From NCBI RefSeq assembly GCF_001969265.1, contig NZ_CP019304.1:3720001-3784000 (forward strand): DNA of 64,000 nt. The letters are read 5' to 3'. Source of the DNA: Arthrobacter sp. QXT-31. Lineage in GTDB: Bacteria > Actinomycetota > Actinomycetes > Actinomycetales > Micrococcaceae. Position numbers and translations under genes: made by a program. Positions 24,423 through 32,001 of this stretch are shown here, in pieces; the first letter of the stretch is position 1; every line of letters starts with the position of its first letter. Below the pieces are notes generated by a model. The model was not told the DNA's origin. It searched no databases and saw only the letters and a list, made by a program, of their open reading frames with translations.

Positions 24423-24429
24423 CGTTGTA

Positions 24430-24465
24430 AAAATGGCCGGCCTCCGCAGGGAGGCCGGCCATTTT
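24430..24465 (+). terminator. Rho-independent terminator after guaA
   Basis: Arms 24430-24445 and 24450-24465 pair perfectly over 16 bp around a GCAG loop; the right arm ends in TTTT. It starts 8 nt after the guaA stop. Confidence 0.9.
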
Positions 24466-24579: not shown

Positions 24580-27500
24580 ATGCCCGTATGGTCCAAGGCG
24601 TCACGTGCAAGCGCAGAAAAGAAGGCAGTAGTGTCAGTAGGTCAGCTCGACTCCGAGGGTTCGGAGGAGCTCCGGAAGTGGCTGTCCGGGCTCAAGCCCG
24701 TTACCGGGGCAGACACCATGCTGCGCTTCACCAAGACGCCCGAGGGTTCCATCGACCTTACACATGCGCATCCTTCCGGCCTGGCGCAGCTCATGGCAGG
24801 GCGCCGCACCCGGCTCTCGACGCTGATCCGTGACCAGCAGCAGTACGTAGTGGCGGCGCGCGCTTGCCGGAACCTGCGCTCCAAGATCTTCGAACTGGCC
24901 AATGACCGTGGCATCGAGGCCGGGTACTTCTCCGCGGGCACCGTGGTGTGGACCTCCGCCGTCGGCGGCAAGCCGCAGCGCGTCTCGGCACCGGTGATGC
25001 TGACCGCCATGTCGCTCACCATCCGCCCCGGGGAAGACGACTACGAACTGCAGCTCACGGAGCAGGCGCACATCAATCCGGCCCTGATCCGTCACCTGAA
25101 GACCATCCACGGGATCGTGTTCGACGTCAACGCCGTAACCCGGATGGCATACAGCACCGCGCGGTTCGACCCCCTTCCCGTGCTGGACCGGATCAGCACC
25201 CTGGTCAAGCCGATCCACGGCGCCGACGTGGAGCACAACCTGCTCGTCTCGACCTTCGCGGACCTTTCCGGGAACCTCGACGATCCCTGGATCAACGGGC
25301 AGAACGCGCTGGTGTCATCTCTGGCCAAGGCCGCGTCCGGCGAAGTCATCGACGTGCCGGAGCTCCAGCCGGGGCGCTTTCCCAGCGTGGACGAGCGGGA
25401 CCCGGGGGAGGAGCTGCTCCTCCTCGATGCCGACGCCGACCAGCAGTACGTGATCGACGCGGTCCGTGCGGGGGACTCGCTGGTGGTGAGCAGCCCGCCG
25501 GGCACCGGCCAGACGCAGACTGCCATCAACACGATTGGTGCGCTGGTGGATGAAGGCAAGACCGTCCTGGTGGTGGGGGACCGGCGTGCCAGCCTGAACG
25601 AAGTGGCCGGGCGCCTCGAAAACCTGGGCCTGGAGTCCATCCTTTTCCAGCTGACCGGAAACGCAACGCCGCAGCAGCTCAAGGGCCAGCTGGTGCGCGC
25701 CATCGTGCGCAACGAGAAGGCCCAGGAGCCGCAGCTCGGCAGCCTGCACAAGACCCTCACCGAGCACCGCCACGCCCTTCTGGACCATGTGGCCTCGCTG
25801 CACAACGTGCGGCAGCGGTGGGGCTGCTCGCCGTACCAGGCCATGCAGTCGCTCGCTGAGCTGACCTCCATCCAGCCCGCACCCGCCACCACCGTCCGCC
25901 TGAAGCGCAGCGTCCTGGACAACATCCGGGACCGCGAGGAGCTGGCGGGCCGGCTGAAGCGGGCGGCCGAACTGGGGGCGTTCAGCAGGGCATCGACCAC
26001 CAGCCCCTGGCACGGTGCACGTCTGGTGACTCGCAAGGAAACCGAGGAAGCCCAGGAGCTGGCGCGTTCGGTGGCGAAGAAGCTGCCGCTGCTGCAGGAA
26101 CGGATGAAGGACGTGGCCAGCCACGCCGAAATCCGCCTGGGTGCCACCTTCGCCGAATGGGGCTCCCAGCTCAAGCTCCTGGTTGCTGTCCGCGAAAGCC
26201 TGGACAAGTTCACGCCGGACATTTTTGACCGGCCCGTGACTGACCTGATTTCCGCGACGGCGTCGTCCTCCTGGCGCCGGGAACGCGGCATCGACATGGC
26301 CTCCATGCAGCGCTCCCGCCTGCGCCGCGTGGCCAAGGAGTATGTCCGCCCGGGGGTGCACATTTCTGACCTTCACAGCTCGCTGGTGCTGGTGCAGGAA
26401 CAGCGTGCCCAGTGGGCCGGGTACGCCACCACGCAGCGGCACCCGGCCGTGCCGTCAGGCCTCGCCGAAATCAGCATCATGCACCGGGGTCTTACCCGCG
26501 AGATGAAGATGCTGGGCGAGGCGCTGCGGCATACGGCGGCGGGCGGTTCGCTCGAGACCATTCCGTACCCGGAGCTTATGGAGCGCCTGGAACTGCTGGT
26601 CGCGGACACCCAGACGCTGCAGACCCTGCCCGAACGCACCCTGCTCATCGAGAACATGCGCGAGCATGGGCTGGGGGAACTGCTGGCAGACCTCGCGGAA
26701 CGCGAGGTCGGGGCCAAGTCCGTCGCCGCGGAACTGGACCTGGCCTGGTGGCAGTCGGCGCTAGAGGCGATGATCAGCGGGGACGACTATCTGGCGATGT
26801 CCGACGGCGACGCGCTGCGCCAGCTTGAGGCCGAATACCGTCTCGCGGACAACGCCCACATCGCCAGCGGCGCAGGCCGGATGCGGTGGAAGCTGGCCGA
26901 GCGCTGGCGCGCAGGCATCGAGGAGCATTCCCGCCAGGCGGACCTGCTCCGAAGCCTGCTCAAGGATGGACGGGTCACGCTGGCCGCGCTGACGGCGCAG
27001 GCCCCCGCGCTGGTTCCCATGCTGGTGCCTGTCTGGTCGGTCAGCCCCTACCTCATGACCGGGCTCCTCCCCGCCGAGCAGAAGTTCGACGCCGTGGTGA
27101 TCCTCGACGCCGAGGCGACGTCGCTGCAGGCCGTGCTCCCCGCCGTCGCCCGTGCCCGGCAGGTGATCGCCTTCGGTGACGACAAGATCGCCAGTCCCCG
27201 CACCTTCACGGTGGCCGTCGAGCGGCTCGCGGCCGGTGAGCAGTCGCACCAGAGCGTCGAAAGCGCCTTTACCGCACTTTCGGCGGTGCTGCCGACGGCG
27301 CCGCTGCGCTCGGTCTACCGTGCGGTGGACGAGGACCTGGTGCTGCAGCTGAGCAAGAACTTTTACGACGGCGGCCTCCGCCGGCTGCCCGAGGGCCAGT
27401 CGGCCACGGGGCTGGACCGTGCACTGACGGTGGAGTACCTGCCCGACGGCACCGGCCTGCCCAGCGCAGACCATGAGGGCGTCGAATCGGTGGTGGCCGA

Positions 27501-28731
27501 GGTGAACCGCGTGGTTGACCTCGTGTTCGAACACGCGCGGCTCCGGCCCCGGACCTCGCTGGCGGTGGTGACCGCCAGCCTCCGGCACGCGGCACGCATC
27601 GGCGAGTCCATCCGGCTGCAGCTGCCAAACCATCCCTCGCTCTCCGGATTCTTCACGGCAGGAGAGGAATCCTTCAGGGTTGTTGACCTGGAACGCGCCC
27701 AGGGGCTGGTCCGCGACCGCGTGATCTTCTCGCCGGGCTACGGGCGGACGCCGCACGGCCGGGCCCTGCACAGCTTCGGTCCGCTGTCCGCCGAGGGCGG
27801 CCGGGCCAAGTTTGCCCTGGCCATGACCAGGGCGCGGCAGTCGCTGCACGTCCTGACCTGCTTCAAGCCGGAGGACCTGGACCGGACCCGGCTGGCCCAT
27901 GGCGCCGTCGACCTCTACGAACTTCTGGACCGGGAGATTGCCGGCAACACCAACCTGGGAACCCCCGCGTCCAGGGCAGCGGCCAGTGAACAGGCACTGG
28001 GGGCAGATCCGCTGGTTGCCGATCTCGGTGACCGGCTCCGCGCCCGCGGTGCCCGCGTCTGGCACCAGTACGACGGCGCCATCGATGTGGTGGCCGCCGC
28101 CGACCCGCTGAGCACCATGGGTCAGGACGACGCCGACATCCCGCGCCCGGTGGCCATCGAATCCGACGGCACCGAGCAGTACCGGCAGATGACCGTCCGG
28201 GAACGGAGCCGGCTGCGCCCCCAGCTGCTGGAGCGGCTCGGCTGGCGGTACATGCCGCTGTGGACCATCGAGGTCTTTACCGATCCCTCGGCCTGCGCTG
28301 ACAGGATCGGCGGGTACCTCGGACTGGAGAAGCCCGCCCCTCCGCTGCGTTCCTTCGGGACGCCGGGCTTTTTCCTGGATGACGACGTCAGCACCCTTGC
28401 CGTTGACGACTTCGAGCCCGAACCCGAACCTCAACCTGGACAGGAAGACCGGTACGGCATCGGCCAGGACGACCGGTTTGTGGAGGAGGCGGACGGGATC
28501 GCCGCTGATCGTGCGGCGGGTGACGTCCACAGCGCCGATGCACACCACGCCAATGATGGCGCGGCTGACGCTGCTTCAGCAGAGCATGCGGCAGCTGACC
28601 GGCAAGATGCCGGCACCGGCTCGGCCGACATGGACGGTGCCCAGAATGAGGCTGCCGGCAAAGACGATGCCGAGAATAAGACTGCCGCCAAGGTCCAGCA
28701 GGTCGGCGAGCGGAAAGAGGACCTGCGATGA
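24580..28731 (+). CDS. Large SF1 (UPF1/DNA2-like) helicase-related protein with degenerate ATPase motifs and C-terminal Vsr-like domain
   Basis: 1383 residues. An N-terminal region of about 290 residues precedes the first helicase core. Motif I reads PPGTGQTQT with Gln311 where the phosphate-binding lysine belongs. Motif II reads LDAEAT (843-847) instead of DEAS/DEAT, losing the catalytic Glu. Motif III reads GDDKIAS (866-872) instead of GDxxQLPP. Motif VI keeps MTRAR (1082-1086). The C-terminal part resembles the Vsr-like PD-(D/E)xK domain of such helicases: AIDVV near 1169, VAIESDG (1191-1197), then RERSRLRPQLLERLGW. The last 130 residues are acidic and low in complexity. GTG 24631, preceded by GAAGG, is an alternative start. 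ATP hydrolysis is unlikely. Confidence 0.82.
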   Translation: MPVWSKASRASAEKKAVVSVGQLDSEGSEELRKWLSGLKPVTGADTMLRFTKTPEGSIDLTHAHPSGLAQLMAGRRTRLSTLIRDQQQYVVAARACRNLRSKIFELANDRGIEAGYFSAGTVVWTSAVGGKPQRVSAPVMLTAMSLTIRPGEDDYELQLTEQAHINPALIRHLKTIHGIVFDVNAVTRMAYSTARFDPLPVLDRISTLVKPIHGADVEHNLLVSTFADLSGNLDDPWINGQNALVSSLAKAASGEVIDVPELQPGRFPSVDERDPGEELLLLDADADQQYVIDAVRAGDSLVVSSPPGTGQTQTAINTIGALVDEGKTVLVVGDRRASLNEVAGRLENLGLESILFQLTGNATPQQLKGQLVRAIVRNEKAQEPQLGSLHKTLTEHRHALLDHVASLHNVRQRWGCSPYQAMQSLAELTSIQPAPATTVRLKRSVLDNIRDREELAGRLKRAAELGAFSRASTTSPWHGARLVTRKETEEAQELARSVAKKLPLLQERMKDVASHAEIRLGATFAEWGSQLKLLVAVRESLDKFTPDIFDRPVTDLISATASSSWRRERGIDMASMQRSRLRRVAKEYVRPGVHISDLHSSLVLVQEQRAQWAGYATTQRHPAVPSGLAEISIMHRGLTREMKMLGEALRHTAAGGSLETIPYPELMERLELLVADTQTLQTLPERTLLIENMREHGLGELLADLAEREVGAKSVAAELDLAWWQSALEAMISGDDYLAMSDGDALRQLEAEYRLADNAHIASGAGRMRWKLAERWRAGIEEHSRQADLLRSLLKDGRVTLAALTAQAPALVPMLVPVWSVSPYLMTGLLPAEQKFDAVVILDAEATSLQAVLPAVARARQVIAFGDDKIASPRTFTVAVERLAAGEQSHQSVESAFTALSAVLPTAPLRSVYRAVDEDLVLQLSKNFYDGGLRRLPEGQSATGLDRALTVEYLPDGTGLPSADHEGVESVVAEVNRVVDLVFEHARLRPRTSLAVVTASLRHAARIGESIRLQLPNHPSLSGFFTAGEESFRVVDLERAQGLVRDRVIFSPGYGRTPHGRALHSFGPLSAEGGRAKFALAMTRARQSLHVLTCFKPEDLDRTRLAHGAVDLYELLDREIAGNTNLGTPASRAAASEQALGADPLVADLGDRLRARGARVWHQYDGAIDVVAAADPLSTMGQDDADIPRPVAIESDGTEQYRQMTVRERSRLRPQLLERLGWRYMPLWTIEVFTDPSACADRIGGYLGLEKPAPPLRSFGTPGFFLDDDVSTLAVDDFEPEPEPQPGQEDRYGIGQDDRFVEEADGIAADRAAGDVHSADAHHANDGAADAASAEHAAADRQDAGTGSADMDGAQNEAAGKDDAENKTAAKVQQVGERKEDLR

Positions 28732-29057: not shown

Positions 29058-29804
29058 TCAGCGTGCATTGGACCCGACGAGCACGAAAAACAGCTTCCCC
29101 TGGGTTGACGCACCCGCCAGGGCGCCGGCCTGGTCCGGTGTGGCAGCCACAACCAGCAGCCCGTCAGAATCGCCGGCAGCAAGCCACTGGCTGCCCTGGC
29201 TTTCCTGGCCGGAGGTCCACAGGACGGGCACCGACCGGGCGAGCACCTTTGAGGCTGATGCCTGCTCGTAGCCGTTGCCGCTGGTCAGGACCACGTTCAC
29301 GAGCTGGCCCGGGGAAACCAGCTGGATGGAGGAGGGATCCGCCATTCGCAGCGGAACGGCGGCAGATCCGGGCGGCGCGCCGGTCAGCAAACCCGGCCCC
29401 ACCAGCTGCGCATCGGTCAGGAGCTGGCCCTTGCGAAGCGGCGCGGCCAGCTGCTTGCCGCTCACTCCGGAGTGGTCGGCGAAGGTCCCGTCCGGCACCA
29501 GGGCTGGCGGCACGCTCACGGGTTTGAGGTCACTGCCGCTCAGGTTCGCGCCGGCCGGAAGATCACGGGCAGCGGCCAGGACGCTTACGGTCAGGGCAGG
29601 GGCGGGCGTCAGTTGGTGAACGGCGATCCCCGCCGCTGCGCACAGGAGGAGCGCCACAGCAAGGCGCCGGTTACGGTTCAGCCATCCTGCAAACCGCTGT
29701 CCGCGCGGGCGGTGGCGGACCGCCGGGCCGGGCAAGGGGTTGCGGCGCCCTCGGCGAACGGCCGGACGGGTTGCCCTTGCGGGGAAAATTCCGGTAGCTG
29801 GCAT
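29058..29804 (-). CDS. SAF-domain protein, CpaB/RcpC-like
   Basis: 248 residues. A long basic, Arg/Pro-rich N-terminus of about 45 residues precedes one membrane helix (LAVALLLCAAAGIAVHQL). The rest lies outside and starts with a SAF domain (AARDLPAGANLSGSDLKPVSVPPALVPDGT), as in the Flp pilus assembly protein CpaB. No other pilus gene is in the window, so a role in pilus assembly is not supported by context. The ATG has a leaderless -10 hexamer. The gene converges on the small gene ending at 29000. Confidence 0.8.
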   Translation of the reverse strand: MPATGIFPARATRPAVRRGRRNPLPGPAVRHRPRGQRFAGWLNRNRRLAVALLLCAAAGIAVHQLTPAPALTVSVLAAARDLPAGANLSGSDLKPVSVPPALVPDGTFADHSGVSGKQLAAPLRKGQLLTDAQLVGPGLLTGAPPGSAAVPLRMADPSSIQLVSPGQLVNVVLTSGNGYEQASASKVLARSVPVLWTSGQESQGSQWLAAGDSDGLLVVAATPDQAGALAGASTQGKLFFVLVGSNAR

Positions 29805-30397: not shown

Positions 30398-31009
30398 TCA
30401 CGCGAAGGCTACCAGCCCGGAGGGCATGAGCACTGCCTCGACGGGACGGTCGAAGTCCTCAGCAGGGATGGTCTGCGCGGGCAGGAGTTCGGAGTCGTAG
30501 ATGATGGCGGCCTTGGGCAGGTGCAGGCCGCCGGCGTTGGCCGCAGCCAGAAACTTGTCGTAGTAGCCGCCGCCCTGGCCGATCCTGTTGCCGCTGCGGT
30601 CCACTGCCGTCGCCGGCATGAACATCCCGGCAGCAGTCCGTACAGTGTCCAGGCCGTGGCGCTCGCCGGCCGGTTCCTGGATGGGCGCATACTTGCTGCG
30701 GATGAACTCGCTGTCCGGAGTCCAGAAGACCCAGCTGAGCTCCCGGTCCGGCTCGCACACCGGGAGCAGGATGCTGTGGCCAGCCTCATGCAGCGCGTGC
30801 AGCAGGGGGAGGGTCGGCGGTTCGAAGTCGACGCCGAGGTAGGCGGTGAACGTGGCCGGCTTGCCCGCAGCGACGGCCTCGGCCCAAGGCAGGCCGTGGG
30901 AGGCGATGCCATCGCCGGCGTTTGCGAGGTCCGTTGCTGTCAGCGTGGCCCGGATCTGCCGGTGGCGCGAACGGATCCCGTCCTTCGACTGGGTGGTGCC
31001 TGTGGGCAT
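30398..31009 (-). CDS. 5-formyltetrahydrofolate cyclo-ligase
   Basis: 203 residues. It converts 5-formyl-THF to 5,10-methenyl-THF using ATP, recycling the stored folate form. The family signature GQGGGYYDKFLA lies near 140, and the segment RIGQ just before it completes the motif. The substrate-side segment FEPPTLPLLHALHEAGHSILLPV is also typical. ATG 31009 follows AAGGGAGA. It is divergent from galU, with 86 bp between starts, as in mycobacteria. Confidence 0.92.
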   Translation of the reverse strand: MPTGTTQSKDGIRSRHRQIRATLTATDLANAGDGIASHGLPWAEAVAAGKPATFTAYLGVDFEPPTLPLLHALHEAGHSILLPVCEPDRELSWVFWTPDSEFIRSKYAPIQEPAGERHGLDTVRTAAGMFMPATAVDRSGNRIGQGGGYYDKFLAAANAGGLHLPKAAIIYDSELLPAQTIPAEDFDRPVEAVLMPSGLVAFA

Positions 31010-31095: not shown

Positions 31096-32001
31096 GTGAC
31101 TTCCACCAATTGTTCAGTCCGCAAGGCCGTGATCCCCGCAGCGGGACTCGGCACCAGGTTCCTGCCGGCCACCAAGGCCATGCCCAAGGAGATGCTGCCG
31201 GTGGTTGACAAGCCGGCCATCCAGTACGTCGTTGAAGAAGCCGTCAAAGTCGGCCTGAGCGACGTCCTGATGATTACGGGACGCAACAAGCGCGCGCTTG
31301 AGGACCACTTCGACCGCGTCCCGGCCCTGGAAGCGACGCTGGAGGCCAAGGGCGACACCGCCAAGCTGGAATCGATCCAGGCCGCGAGCAACCTCGGCGA
31401 CATCCACTATGTCCGCCAGGGTGATCCCAAGGGCCTTGGCCACGCGGTGCTGCGTGCACGCCAGCACGTCGGCTACGAGCCGTTCGCCGTTCTCCTCGGC
31501 GACGACCTCATCGACGCCCGCGACGAACTCCTCAGCACCATGATCGAAGTGCAGGCCAAGACCGGCGGTTCCGTGGTGGCCCTCATCGAGGTGGAGCCGT
31601 CCCAGATCAGCGCCTATGGCTGCGCGGACATCTCTGAAATTGACGGCGAGGGCTTTGTCCAGATCAACAAGCTGGTGGAGAAGCCGGACGTCGACGAGGC
31701 GCCCTCGAACCTGGCGGTCATTGGCCGCTACGTGCTCCACCCCGACGTTTTCGATGTCCTGGAGAAGACCGAACCGGGCCGCGGCGGCGAGATCCAGCTG
31801 ACGGACGCGCTGCAGGAGCTCGCCAGCAGGGACGGTGAAGGCGGCGGCGTATACGGCGTGGTCTTCCGCGGGCGCCGCTACGACACGGGGGACAAGCTCA
31901 GCTACCTCAAGGCCTGCGTGGAGCTCGCCATCGACAGCGACGACCTCGGACCAGGTCTGCGTGACTGGCTTCCGCGAGTCGCCGCCCGTTTGTCCGAGTA
32001 A
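31096..32001 (+). CDS. galU: UTP-glucose-1-phosphate uridylyltransferase
   Basis: 301 residues. It makes UDP-glucose for glycans and trehalose. The nucleotide-binding start VIPAAGLGTRFLPATKAMPKE carries the catalytic Arg and Lys; VVDKPAIQYVVEEA and the metal-binding VLLGDD segment follow, and the sugar-binding lysine region lies near VEKP. Full length. The start is a GTG with leaderless spacing. The acetyltransferase gene begins 7 nt after the stop, so the two are probably one transcript. Confidence 0.96.
   Translation: MTSTNCSVRKAVIPAAGLGTRFLPATKAMPKEMLPVVDKPAIQYVVEEAVKVGLSDVLMITGRNKRALEDHFDRVPALEATLEAKGDTAKLESIQAASNLGDIHYVRQGDPKGLGHAVLRARQHVGYEPFAVLLGDDLIDARDELLSTMIEVQAKTGGSVVALIEVEPSQISAYGCADISEIDGEGFVQINKLVEKPDVDEAPSNLAVIGRYVLHPDVFDVLEKTEPGRGGEIQLTDALQELASRDGEGGGVYGVVFRGRRYDTGDKLSYLKACVELAIDSDDLGPGLRDWLPRVAARLSE

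Follow-up and report, generated by a model that had tools for sequence, protein, structure and literature searches.

The window analysed here is a stretch of 64,000 nucleotides from Arthrobacter sp. QXT-31 (Micrococcaceae; contig NZ_CP019304.1, positions 3,720,001 to 3,784,000 of the forward strand). It carries, between guaA and a convergent SAF/CpaB-like gene, a gene whose product resembles superfamily 1 (SF1) helicases of the Upf1-like kind and is without their set of ATPase residues. We call this product the pseudo-helicase; a small open reading frame (ORF) of 90 amino acids (aa) overlaps its stop codon by 4 bp (Table 1). The frame is uninterrupted from 24580 to 28731, all 1383 codons of it, as an earlier reading of the window made from the letters alone (hereafter, the sequence-only reading) had stated. 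An alternative upstream start is possible at 24433, where a hairpin sits, and for that reason the start at 24580 is favoured. The hairpin was read by eye and is absent from the output of a pattern scan, which also gave no promoter-like site; lying after guaA, it suggests that the pseudo-helicase may be a transcription unit of its own.

Table 1. Features of the pseudo-helicase locus, in positions of the window.
Feature	Position	Strand	Remarks
guaA	22833..24422	+	upstream neighbour in Micrococcaceae
Hairpin between guaA and pseudo-helicase	24429..24465	+	ATTTT (short T) tail; by-eye sequence reading
Pseudo-helicase gene	24580..28731	+	1383 aa; SF1 Upf1-like core and C-terminal Vsr-like restriction-endonuclease (REase) domain
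Motif I	25495..25521	+	PPGTGQTQT; Lys to Gln311
Helical insertion	25675..27024	+	aa 366-815; confident model
Motif II	27094..27123	+	VVILDAEATS replacing VVFDEASQ; by register Asp to Leu842, Glu to Asp843
Motif III	27175..27195	+	GDDKIAS replacing GDERQLP; Gln lost
Motif V	27691..27732	+	ERAQGLVRDRVIFS replacing ERVQGDERDAIILS; Glu lost
Motif VI	27817..27840	+	LAMTRARQ; kept
Vsr/MTES_1575-like REase domain	28012..28329	+	ID...ESDG...RLRP...RLGW kept in the window, eroded in many relatives
Partner ORF, 90 aa	28728..29000	+	ATGA overlap with pseudo-helicase stop (28728-28731); end WGDSESDNDHDAWLKEQKPPHWG
SAF/CpaB-like gene	29058..29804	-	convergent marker of the conserved locus
5-formyltetrahydrofolate cyclo-ligase (5-FCL) gene	30398..31009	-	marker of the conserved locus
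galU	31096..32001	+	marker of the conserved locus

The pseudo-helicase is colinear with an active syntenic orthologue at 39% identity (locus L066; labels beginning with L, G, and f denote loci, genomes, and families). Active orthologues have lysine at the site of Gln311 and GDxxQLP where the window has GDDKIAS, so that the motif I lysine and the motif III glutamine are lost, as the sequence-only reading had claimed. In motif II, where these orthologues have FDEASQ and the window ILDAEAT, that reading was right that the aspartate-glutamate pair is gone, but its change of glutamate to Ala844 lies one register off: a gap-free alignment gives Leu842-Asp843, a correction that leaves the conclusion untouched because neither register holds the pair. 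Relative to the active syntenic orthologues, motifs IV (WHYRS to SVYRA) and V (QGDE to QGLV) are altered as well, and the residue set of an SF1 enzyme (Walker A lysine, Walker B aspartate-glutamate, motif III glutamine, and motif V glutamate) is absent. The claim that every key ATPase residue had been lost holds for motifs I, II, and III and extends to IV and V, but the Q-motif glutamine (LDADADQQ) is intact and so is the distal MTRAR of motif VI, whose retention had been pointed out correctly. Here and below, copies are called dead or active as judged by their motif residues. At least one Actinomyces oris record annotates such a gene as 'DNA helicase', a name that would mislead.

Gln311 occurs in 34/34 aligned congeneric loci (L001-L034, the window's own included, from 34 of 65 congeneric genomes) and in 68/76 Micrococcaceae rows (which include L118 and L124, a distant paralogue, and some near-copies). 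Its codon is CAG in 75 and CAA in 8 of 86 Micrococcaceae records with PG[TS]GxTQT; preserved in this way across a synonymous change, the residue is, to judge from the alignments, no chance substitution. The motif I lysine is replaced by glycine in 27/28 Microbacteriaceae-type rows (LPGTGGTQT; the active, non-orthologous L230 was left out by hand), by alanine in 6/6 f6 rows, and elsewhere by valine, serine, threonine, or others, or the loop is unrecognisable; no P-loop is left in copies of the Cellulomonadaceae/Promicromonosporaceae type or of f4, f9, f11, and f20. An ATPase that still works through substitute residues would find some support in the acid kept by the motif II change from glutamate to aspartate and in the retained motif VI arginine and Q-motif. 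Such an enzyme is highly improbable: the lysine has become Q, G, A, V, S, R, or others by family with no common replacement, and in E. coli PriA the change of K to R alone abolishes ATPase activity (PMC4504706).

The remaining P-loop could also belong to a nucleotide-gated sensor, in which it would bind a nucleotide (ATP, ADP, or another), leave it unhydrolysed, and change the conformation of the protein. PPGTGQTQT stands at the 85th conservation percentile in Micrococcaceae, LPGTGGTQT is retained in Microbacteriaceae, the Q-motif and motif VI arginine are kept, and adjacency to guaA would hint at guanine nucleotides. However, guaA adjacency is seen only in Micrococcaceae-type stretches, and since several families have lost the P-loop, nucleotide binding is very unlikely to be what the copies have in common; we consider a sensor unlikely.

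Helicase matches are present in 61/61 genomes of the genus, 120/120 of the family (32/32 genera), and 146/149 of the order, the last figure counting any match at E <= 0.001 and not orthologues only; beyond the order they thin out to 93/246 class genomes and 18/149 phylum genomes, where many are no more than short stretches of similarity to other helicases. Loci were hand-chosen to spread over families, with few loci per family and f12 and f16 represented by one incomplete locus each; among the 20 families of the order with loci read, 18 have dead orthologues only, f17 has both kinds, and f5 has active copies only. Even a 0.8-Mb genome (G228, 99% complete) has a dead copy (L135). Active-type relatives occur in Arthrobacter sp. 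C2 (L234, away from the conserved locus) and Microbacterium sp. oral taxon 186 (L230, in a stretch too short to place), though the syntenic copies read in both genera are dead.

Three trees of chosen rows with the motif columns removed (a 108-row FastTree, a 56-row quick tree, and a 34-row careful tree) agree: a large clade contains dead copies only, two dead copies branch together within the active f17 clade, and f36 falls outside along with L091. The best trees require three changes, and supported branches alone force two (56-row tree). With groups named after the first tree, a single clade of all dead copies is rejected (p 0.0056), and a single clade of the in-order dead copies only marginally (p 0.041). 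The trees alone do not tell the direction of change; loss, not regain, is plausible and is favoured because relatives outside are active.

Kinship of the pseudo-helicase with active syntenic orthologues follows from the trees together with synteny. In the 20-kb stretches, the usual order 3' of the helicase is convergent mscL, SAF/CpaB-like, fmdB, and 5-FCL genes, then galU, moeA, rimJ, and a sepX-like gene, with some members missing in some families; no mscL was found in Micrococcaceae stretches, most of which have guaA upstream. The 180 loci counted comprise 127 syntenic ones, of which 117 are dead and 10 active; a further 29 are located elsewhere, 22 of them active and 7 dead; and the stretches of the other 24 (9 dead, 15 active) are too short to place them. 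Since the loci are related and hand-picked, these figures are descriptive and not a test. One locus was taken per record title and ORFs below 1000 aa were dropped; a stretch is syntenic if it holds at least two of MscL, SAF, FmdB, MTHFS, GalU, MoeA, and SepX anywhere (L312 is placed by its own reading) and too short if it is under 16 kb without two of them, and the named loci are the best 80 among at least 575 confirmed stretches and share at least one genome with the other set (L218/L297). The syntenic active copies come from f5 (one), f17 (five), named Intrasporangiaceae (three: Nostocoides, Pedococcus, and Knoellia), and Dermacoccaceae (one: Flexivirga). They are of f5 and of Dermatophilaceae type and are limited to one clade of the order, and other active relatives are elsewhere or in too-short stretches; of the 22 elsewhere, Phycicoccus falls in the same clade and the others are more distant. 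The seven dead copies elsewhere belong to f11 (four), f4, f6, and f25 (one each). Family f36, which lies outside the order and is dead independently (lysine changed to arginine), has its copies at the same locus in 7/7 stretches read.

Several loci depart from this arrangement or from its usual setting. L149-L152 (f11) and L235 (Brachybacterium, in a short stretch) have a dead helicase without mscL-locus markers, and L149-L152 share neighbours of their own (gene families 31, 32, 39, and 40), the clearest relocation of dead copies. L227, recorded as Sporosarcina beigongshangi REN13 (scaffold8), carries a Micrococcaceae-type guaA-pseudohelicase-SAF-fmdB-5FCL-galU block and is probably contamination or a mislabelled assembly. 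L312, the 415-kb 'plasmid unnamed1' of Actinomyces oris WVU627, holds the mscL locus with a helicase-like gene and could be part of the chromosome, a secondary replicon, or a case of a core locus that was transferred; among 335 plasmid records with any match, this replicon is the only one that covers at least 80% of the protein.

The neighbours are housekeeping genes by Pfam and NCBIfam (10 neighbours; PADLOC was run on the helicase protein alone), and the patchy occurrence, mobility, and clustering with defence genes that mark a defence island are not seen. The sequence-only reading had hinted at such an island; the matches run throughout the genus, family, and order in a conserved housekeeping cluster instead, and the pseudo-helicase is a core gene.

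Purifying selection on the gene resembles that on its slower neighbours. Most pairs have a high Nei-Gojobori dS, and the ratio dN/dS (omega) is therefore used only against neighbours: across 12 congeners its median is 0.084 for the pseudo-helicase core, close to galU (0.080), with rimJ at 0.070, glpD at 0.067, and guaA at 0.046, and with SAF (0.171), sepX-like (0.192), SURF1 (0.205), and 5-FCL (0.310) evolving faster. Selection is thus not relaxed. In this genus the 5-FCL gene changes faster than is usual for metabolic genes. The possibility that the pseudo-helicase gene is in slow decay, carried by its neighbours, draws on the further erosion of catalytic motifs in some lineages, on one in-match stop in 6/61 best congeneric rows, and on a helicase in two pieces in G030 and on two contigs in G048. 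It is hardly credible given the low omega, the preservation of Gln311 across a codon change, and the copy retained in the 0.8-Mb genome; moreover, in G012 and G005, the two of the six stop-bearing rows that were read, the stop is the gene's own and the tail ORF continues in frame. Normal-motif homologues scattered among close relatives together with relaxed selection, which the sequence-only reading had named as evidence against itself, were not found, and its proposal of a selected pseudo-helicase agrees with dead motifs conserved order-wide, a galU-like omega, retention in a very small genome, and a confident structure model.

The distribution of constraint within the protein has also changed. 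In two active sets, RecA1a is the most conserved part (1.25x and 1.49x mean identity) and the insertion the least (0.81x and 0.66x), and in the wider of them the REase part reaches 1.36x and matches the second lobe. The corresponding values of the 18-row dead set are 0.97x for RecA1a and 0.99x for the insertion, which has this value also in the smaller dead set f1/f19/f6. In the main dead clade, constraint has persisted but spread away from the ATPase core.

The structure model, which the sequence-only reading had suggested making, is confident and helicase-like, with a predicted Upf1-like SF1 fold of two RecA-like lobes in SF1B topology; the helical insertion gave no convincing fold match. 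The C-terminal domain matches PF18741 (MTES_1575 REase) with 32.2 bits at E 1.2e-7, below the gathering threshold of 38.2, a real but weak match that marks an evident but diverged relative; the Vsr-like domain had been recognised correctly. In the window it keeps a catalytic-like D...E-x-D (ID and ESDG, assigned by alignment with active relatives) along with RLRP and RLGW. These intact residues would suit a motorless nuclease or anti-phage effector, whose Vsr-like domain cuts and whose dead helicase merely positions it, and the closest curated models are indeed anti-phage ProA, Hhe, and PADLOC PDC-S37. We regard this as distinctly unlikely. Some Micrococcaceae, together with f3, f8, f13, and f4, have lost the E, and Microbacteriaceae the D, which makes nuclease activity unlikely as a common function; the scores are far under the NCBIfam cut-offs (ProA, NF058533, 349.8 of 1500 bits; Hhe, NF042953, 166 of 2000 bits); the gene is core and syntenic, not patchy; and 50,697 phage records yielded one remote match (22.7% identity).

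The 90-aa ORF ends in WG...QKPPHWG and contains, 246 bases past the helicase end, the genome's only match to a Q-(R/K)-PPHW DNA pattern. Many orthologues, active and dead, themselves terminate in DDxxxxWG(D/E)...W(L/I)xEQ(R/K)PPHWG or a variant, a tail that the window's helicase is without. Of 195 loci (L100-L309 and L312, repeats included), 33 have a helicase with the tail fused on, 61 have the tail as a separate ORF just downstream, and 101 have none by pattern, a class that includes distant active relatives, paralogues, other phyla, and f20; fusions are counted as loci, not as independent events on a tree. Fused tails occur in f1, f9, f13, f15, f17, f18, and their named kin. Spacing was measured for 31 separate tail ORFs, using whichever possible start is closest to the helicase stop (a choice that favours short spacings): in 28 the start can lie no more than 30 bases from that stop, in 13 of them with a 4-base overlap; three f36 tail ORFs start 85-459 bases past it. 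In two genomes, G012 and G005, a stop codon separates the helicase from a tail that continues in the same frame.

A profile of the tail finds 62/99 order genomes and 60/88 class genomes (E <= 0.01, weak matches included), with a single copy in all but two of the positive genomes. Tail and helicase lie on one contig in 52 order genomes, at most 2.5 kb apart in 50 and 3.2 and 4.8 kb apart in the others; the remaining positive genomes of the order have the two on different contigs (six) or no listed helicase coordinates (four). Three genomes outside the order have the small gene and no full-length helicase match: in G331 and G393 it is convergent to mscL or SAF-fmdB-5FCL, the same locus, and in G329 no locus marker was seen within the 4.5 kb read around it. 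The small WG-PPH(W/H) proteins of L314 (2720-2902, reverse strand) and L315 (2338-2712, reverse strand) stand at the mscL/SAF locus in genomes with no full-length helicase match. The members of the small WG-PPHW protein family that were tried matched no Pfam, NCBIfam, or PHROGs model. The small protein seems to be more widespread than the helicase, from which we infer that the helicase probably joined it later.

Known systems share parts of this picture. Like ProA, Hhe, and PDC-S37 (DUF4011-type SF1 helicase with a Vsr-like REase), the window protein gives partial but strong model matches, best over its second half; unlike them, it is about 1400 aa long (models, 1550-1911), has a dead ATPase and a WG-PPHW tail, and is a core syntenic housekeeping gene. 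Core status of a DUF4011 gene is known elsewhere too: one study places such a gene beside a defence hotspot in all of its P. aeruginosa isolates (PMC10250203). MTES_1575 of Microbacterium testaceum (HEPN, SF1, Vsr, and wHTH), from which the Pfam name derives, has the Vsr-like domain in common but is about 2160 aa long, with HEPN (listed as active), transglutaminase, and wHTH domains fused (PMC3710099); some congeners have distant matches within 2150-aa frames, which probably represent the same type of protein. RecC and AddB, each an inactivated SF1 helicase with a nuclease or nuclease-like domain, keep an SF1 fold without catalysis to handle or recognise DNA, and RecC likewise keeps a nuclease fold (PMC1185551, PMC4824097). 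The pseudo-helicase may work like them, as an SF1 fold kept without catalysis for DNA recognition, whereas RecC and AddB are UvrD-like, act in complex with an active motor subunit, and recognise Chi, and the window protein is Upf1-like, at a stand-alone locus, with no known motor partner. Pseudohelicases as a kind are already described, among them Deinococcus radiodurans PriA and yeast Utp25, which belong to other helicase families (superfamily 2). The former has lost ATPase activity and kept binding of DNA and DnaB (PMC4504706), and a 2022 paper presents the latter as only the second pseudohelicase proposed (PMC9539457).

We put at about even the chance that the pseudo-helicase is an ATP-independent, nucleic-acid-binding scaffold that presents a tail, RecC/AddB-like in logic. 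An SF1 (Upf1-like) helicase-nuclease would have been domesticated by losing its ATPase residues, and with them ATP hydrolysis, while keeping its fold; its pair of RecA-like lobes, together with the long helical insertion, would grip a nucleic-acid structure (DNA or RNA) or a protein; and an acidic, probably disordered tail, either the C-terminus of the same chain or the coupled small ORF in contact with the helicase, would show its WG...RPPHW peptide to a partner. Several observations weigh against this scaffold. The tail is not coupled to the helicase everywhere, since the 101 loci without it beside the gene include in-order loci of f4 and f8 and several of f3, f13, and f19, and neighbouring genes on the same strand can become fused simply because a stop codon is lost. 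Smaller dead sets show a less marked shift of constraint (insertion at 0.92x in f8/f13/f3/f11 and 0.85x in three f36 rows), the dead and active sets compared differ in depth, and the conserved P-loop of Micrococcaceae would fit nucleotide binding.

More tentatively, and with odds somewhat against it, the scaffold may be part of a core complex of Actinomycetes, in which a class-wide acidic WG...RPPHW protein at the mscL-SAF-fmdB locus gained a defence-type SF1 helicase-nuclease. The motor would then have been lost more than once, often with the nuclease residues, leaving a nucleic-acid platform that docks the target of the peptide and is fused to it in several families. Searches of the open-licence PMC literature pointed to no paper on the pseudo-helicase family or the tail protein, and the coupled small protein is new. 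Pseudo-helicases are few, which makes an order-wide dead SF1 family noteworthy, and its retention in nearly the whole order, usually next to the tail protein or fused with it, suggests an important ATP-free job, so far undescribed. Two families still have active syntenic orthologues, so that a direct comparison could test the proposed conversion of a motor into a scaffold.

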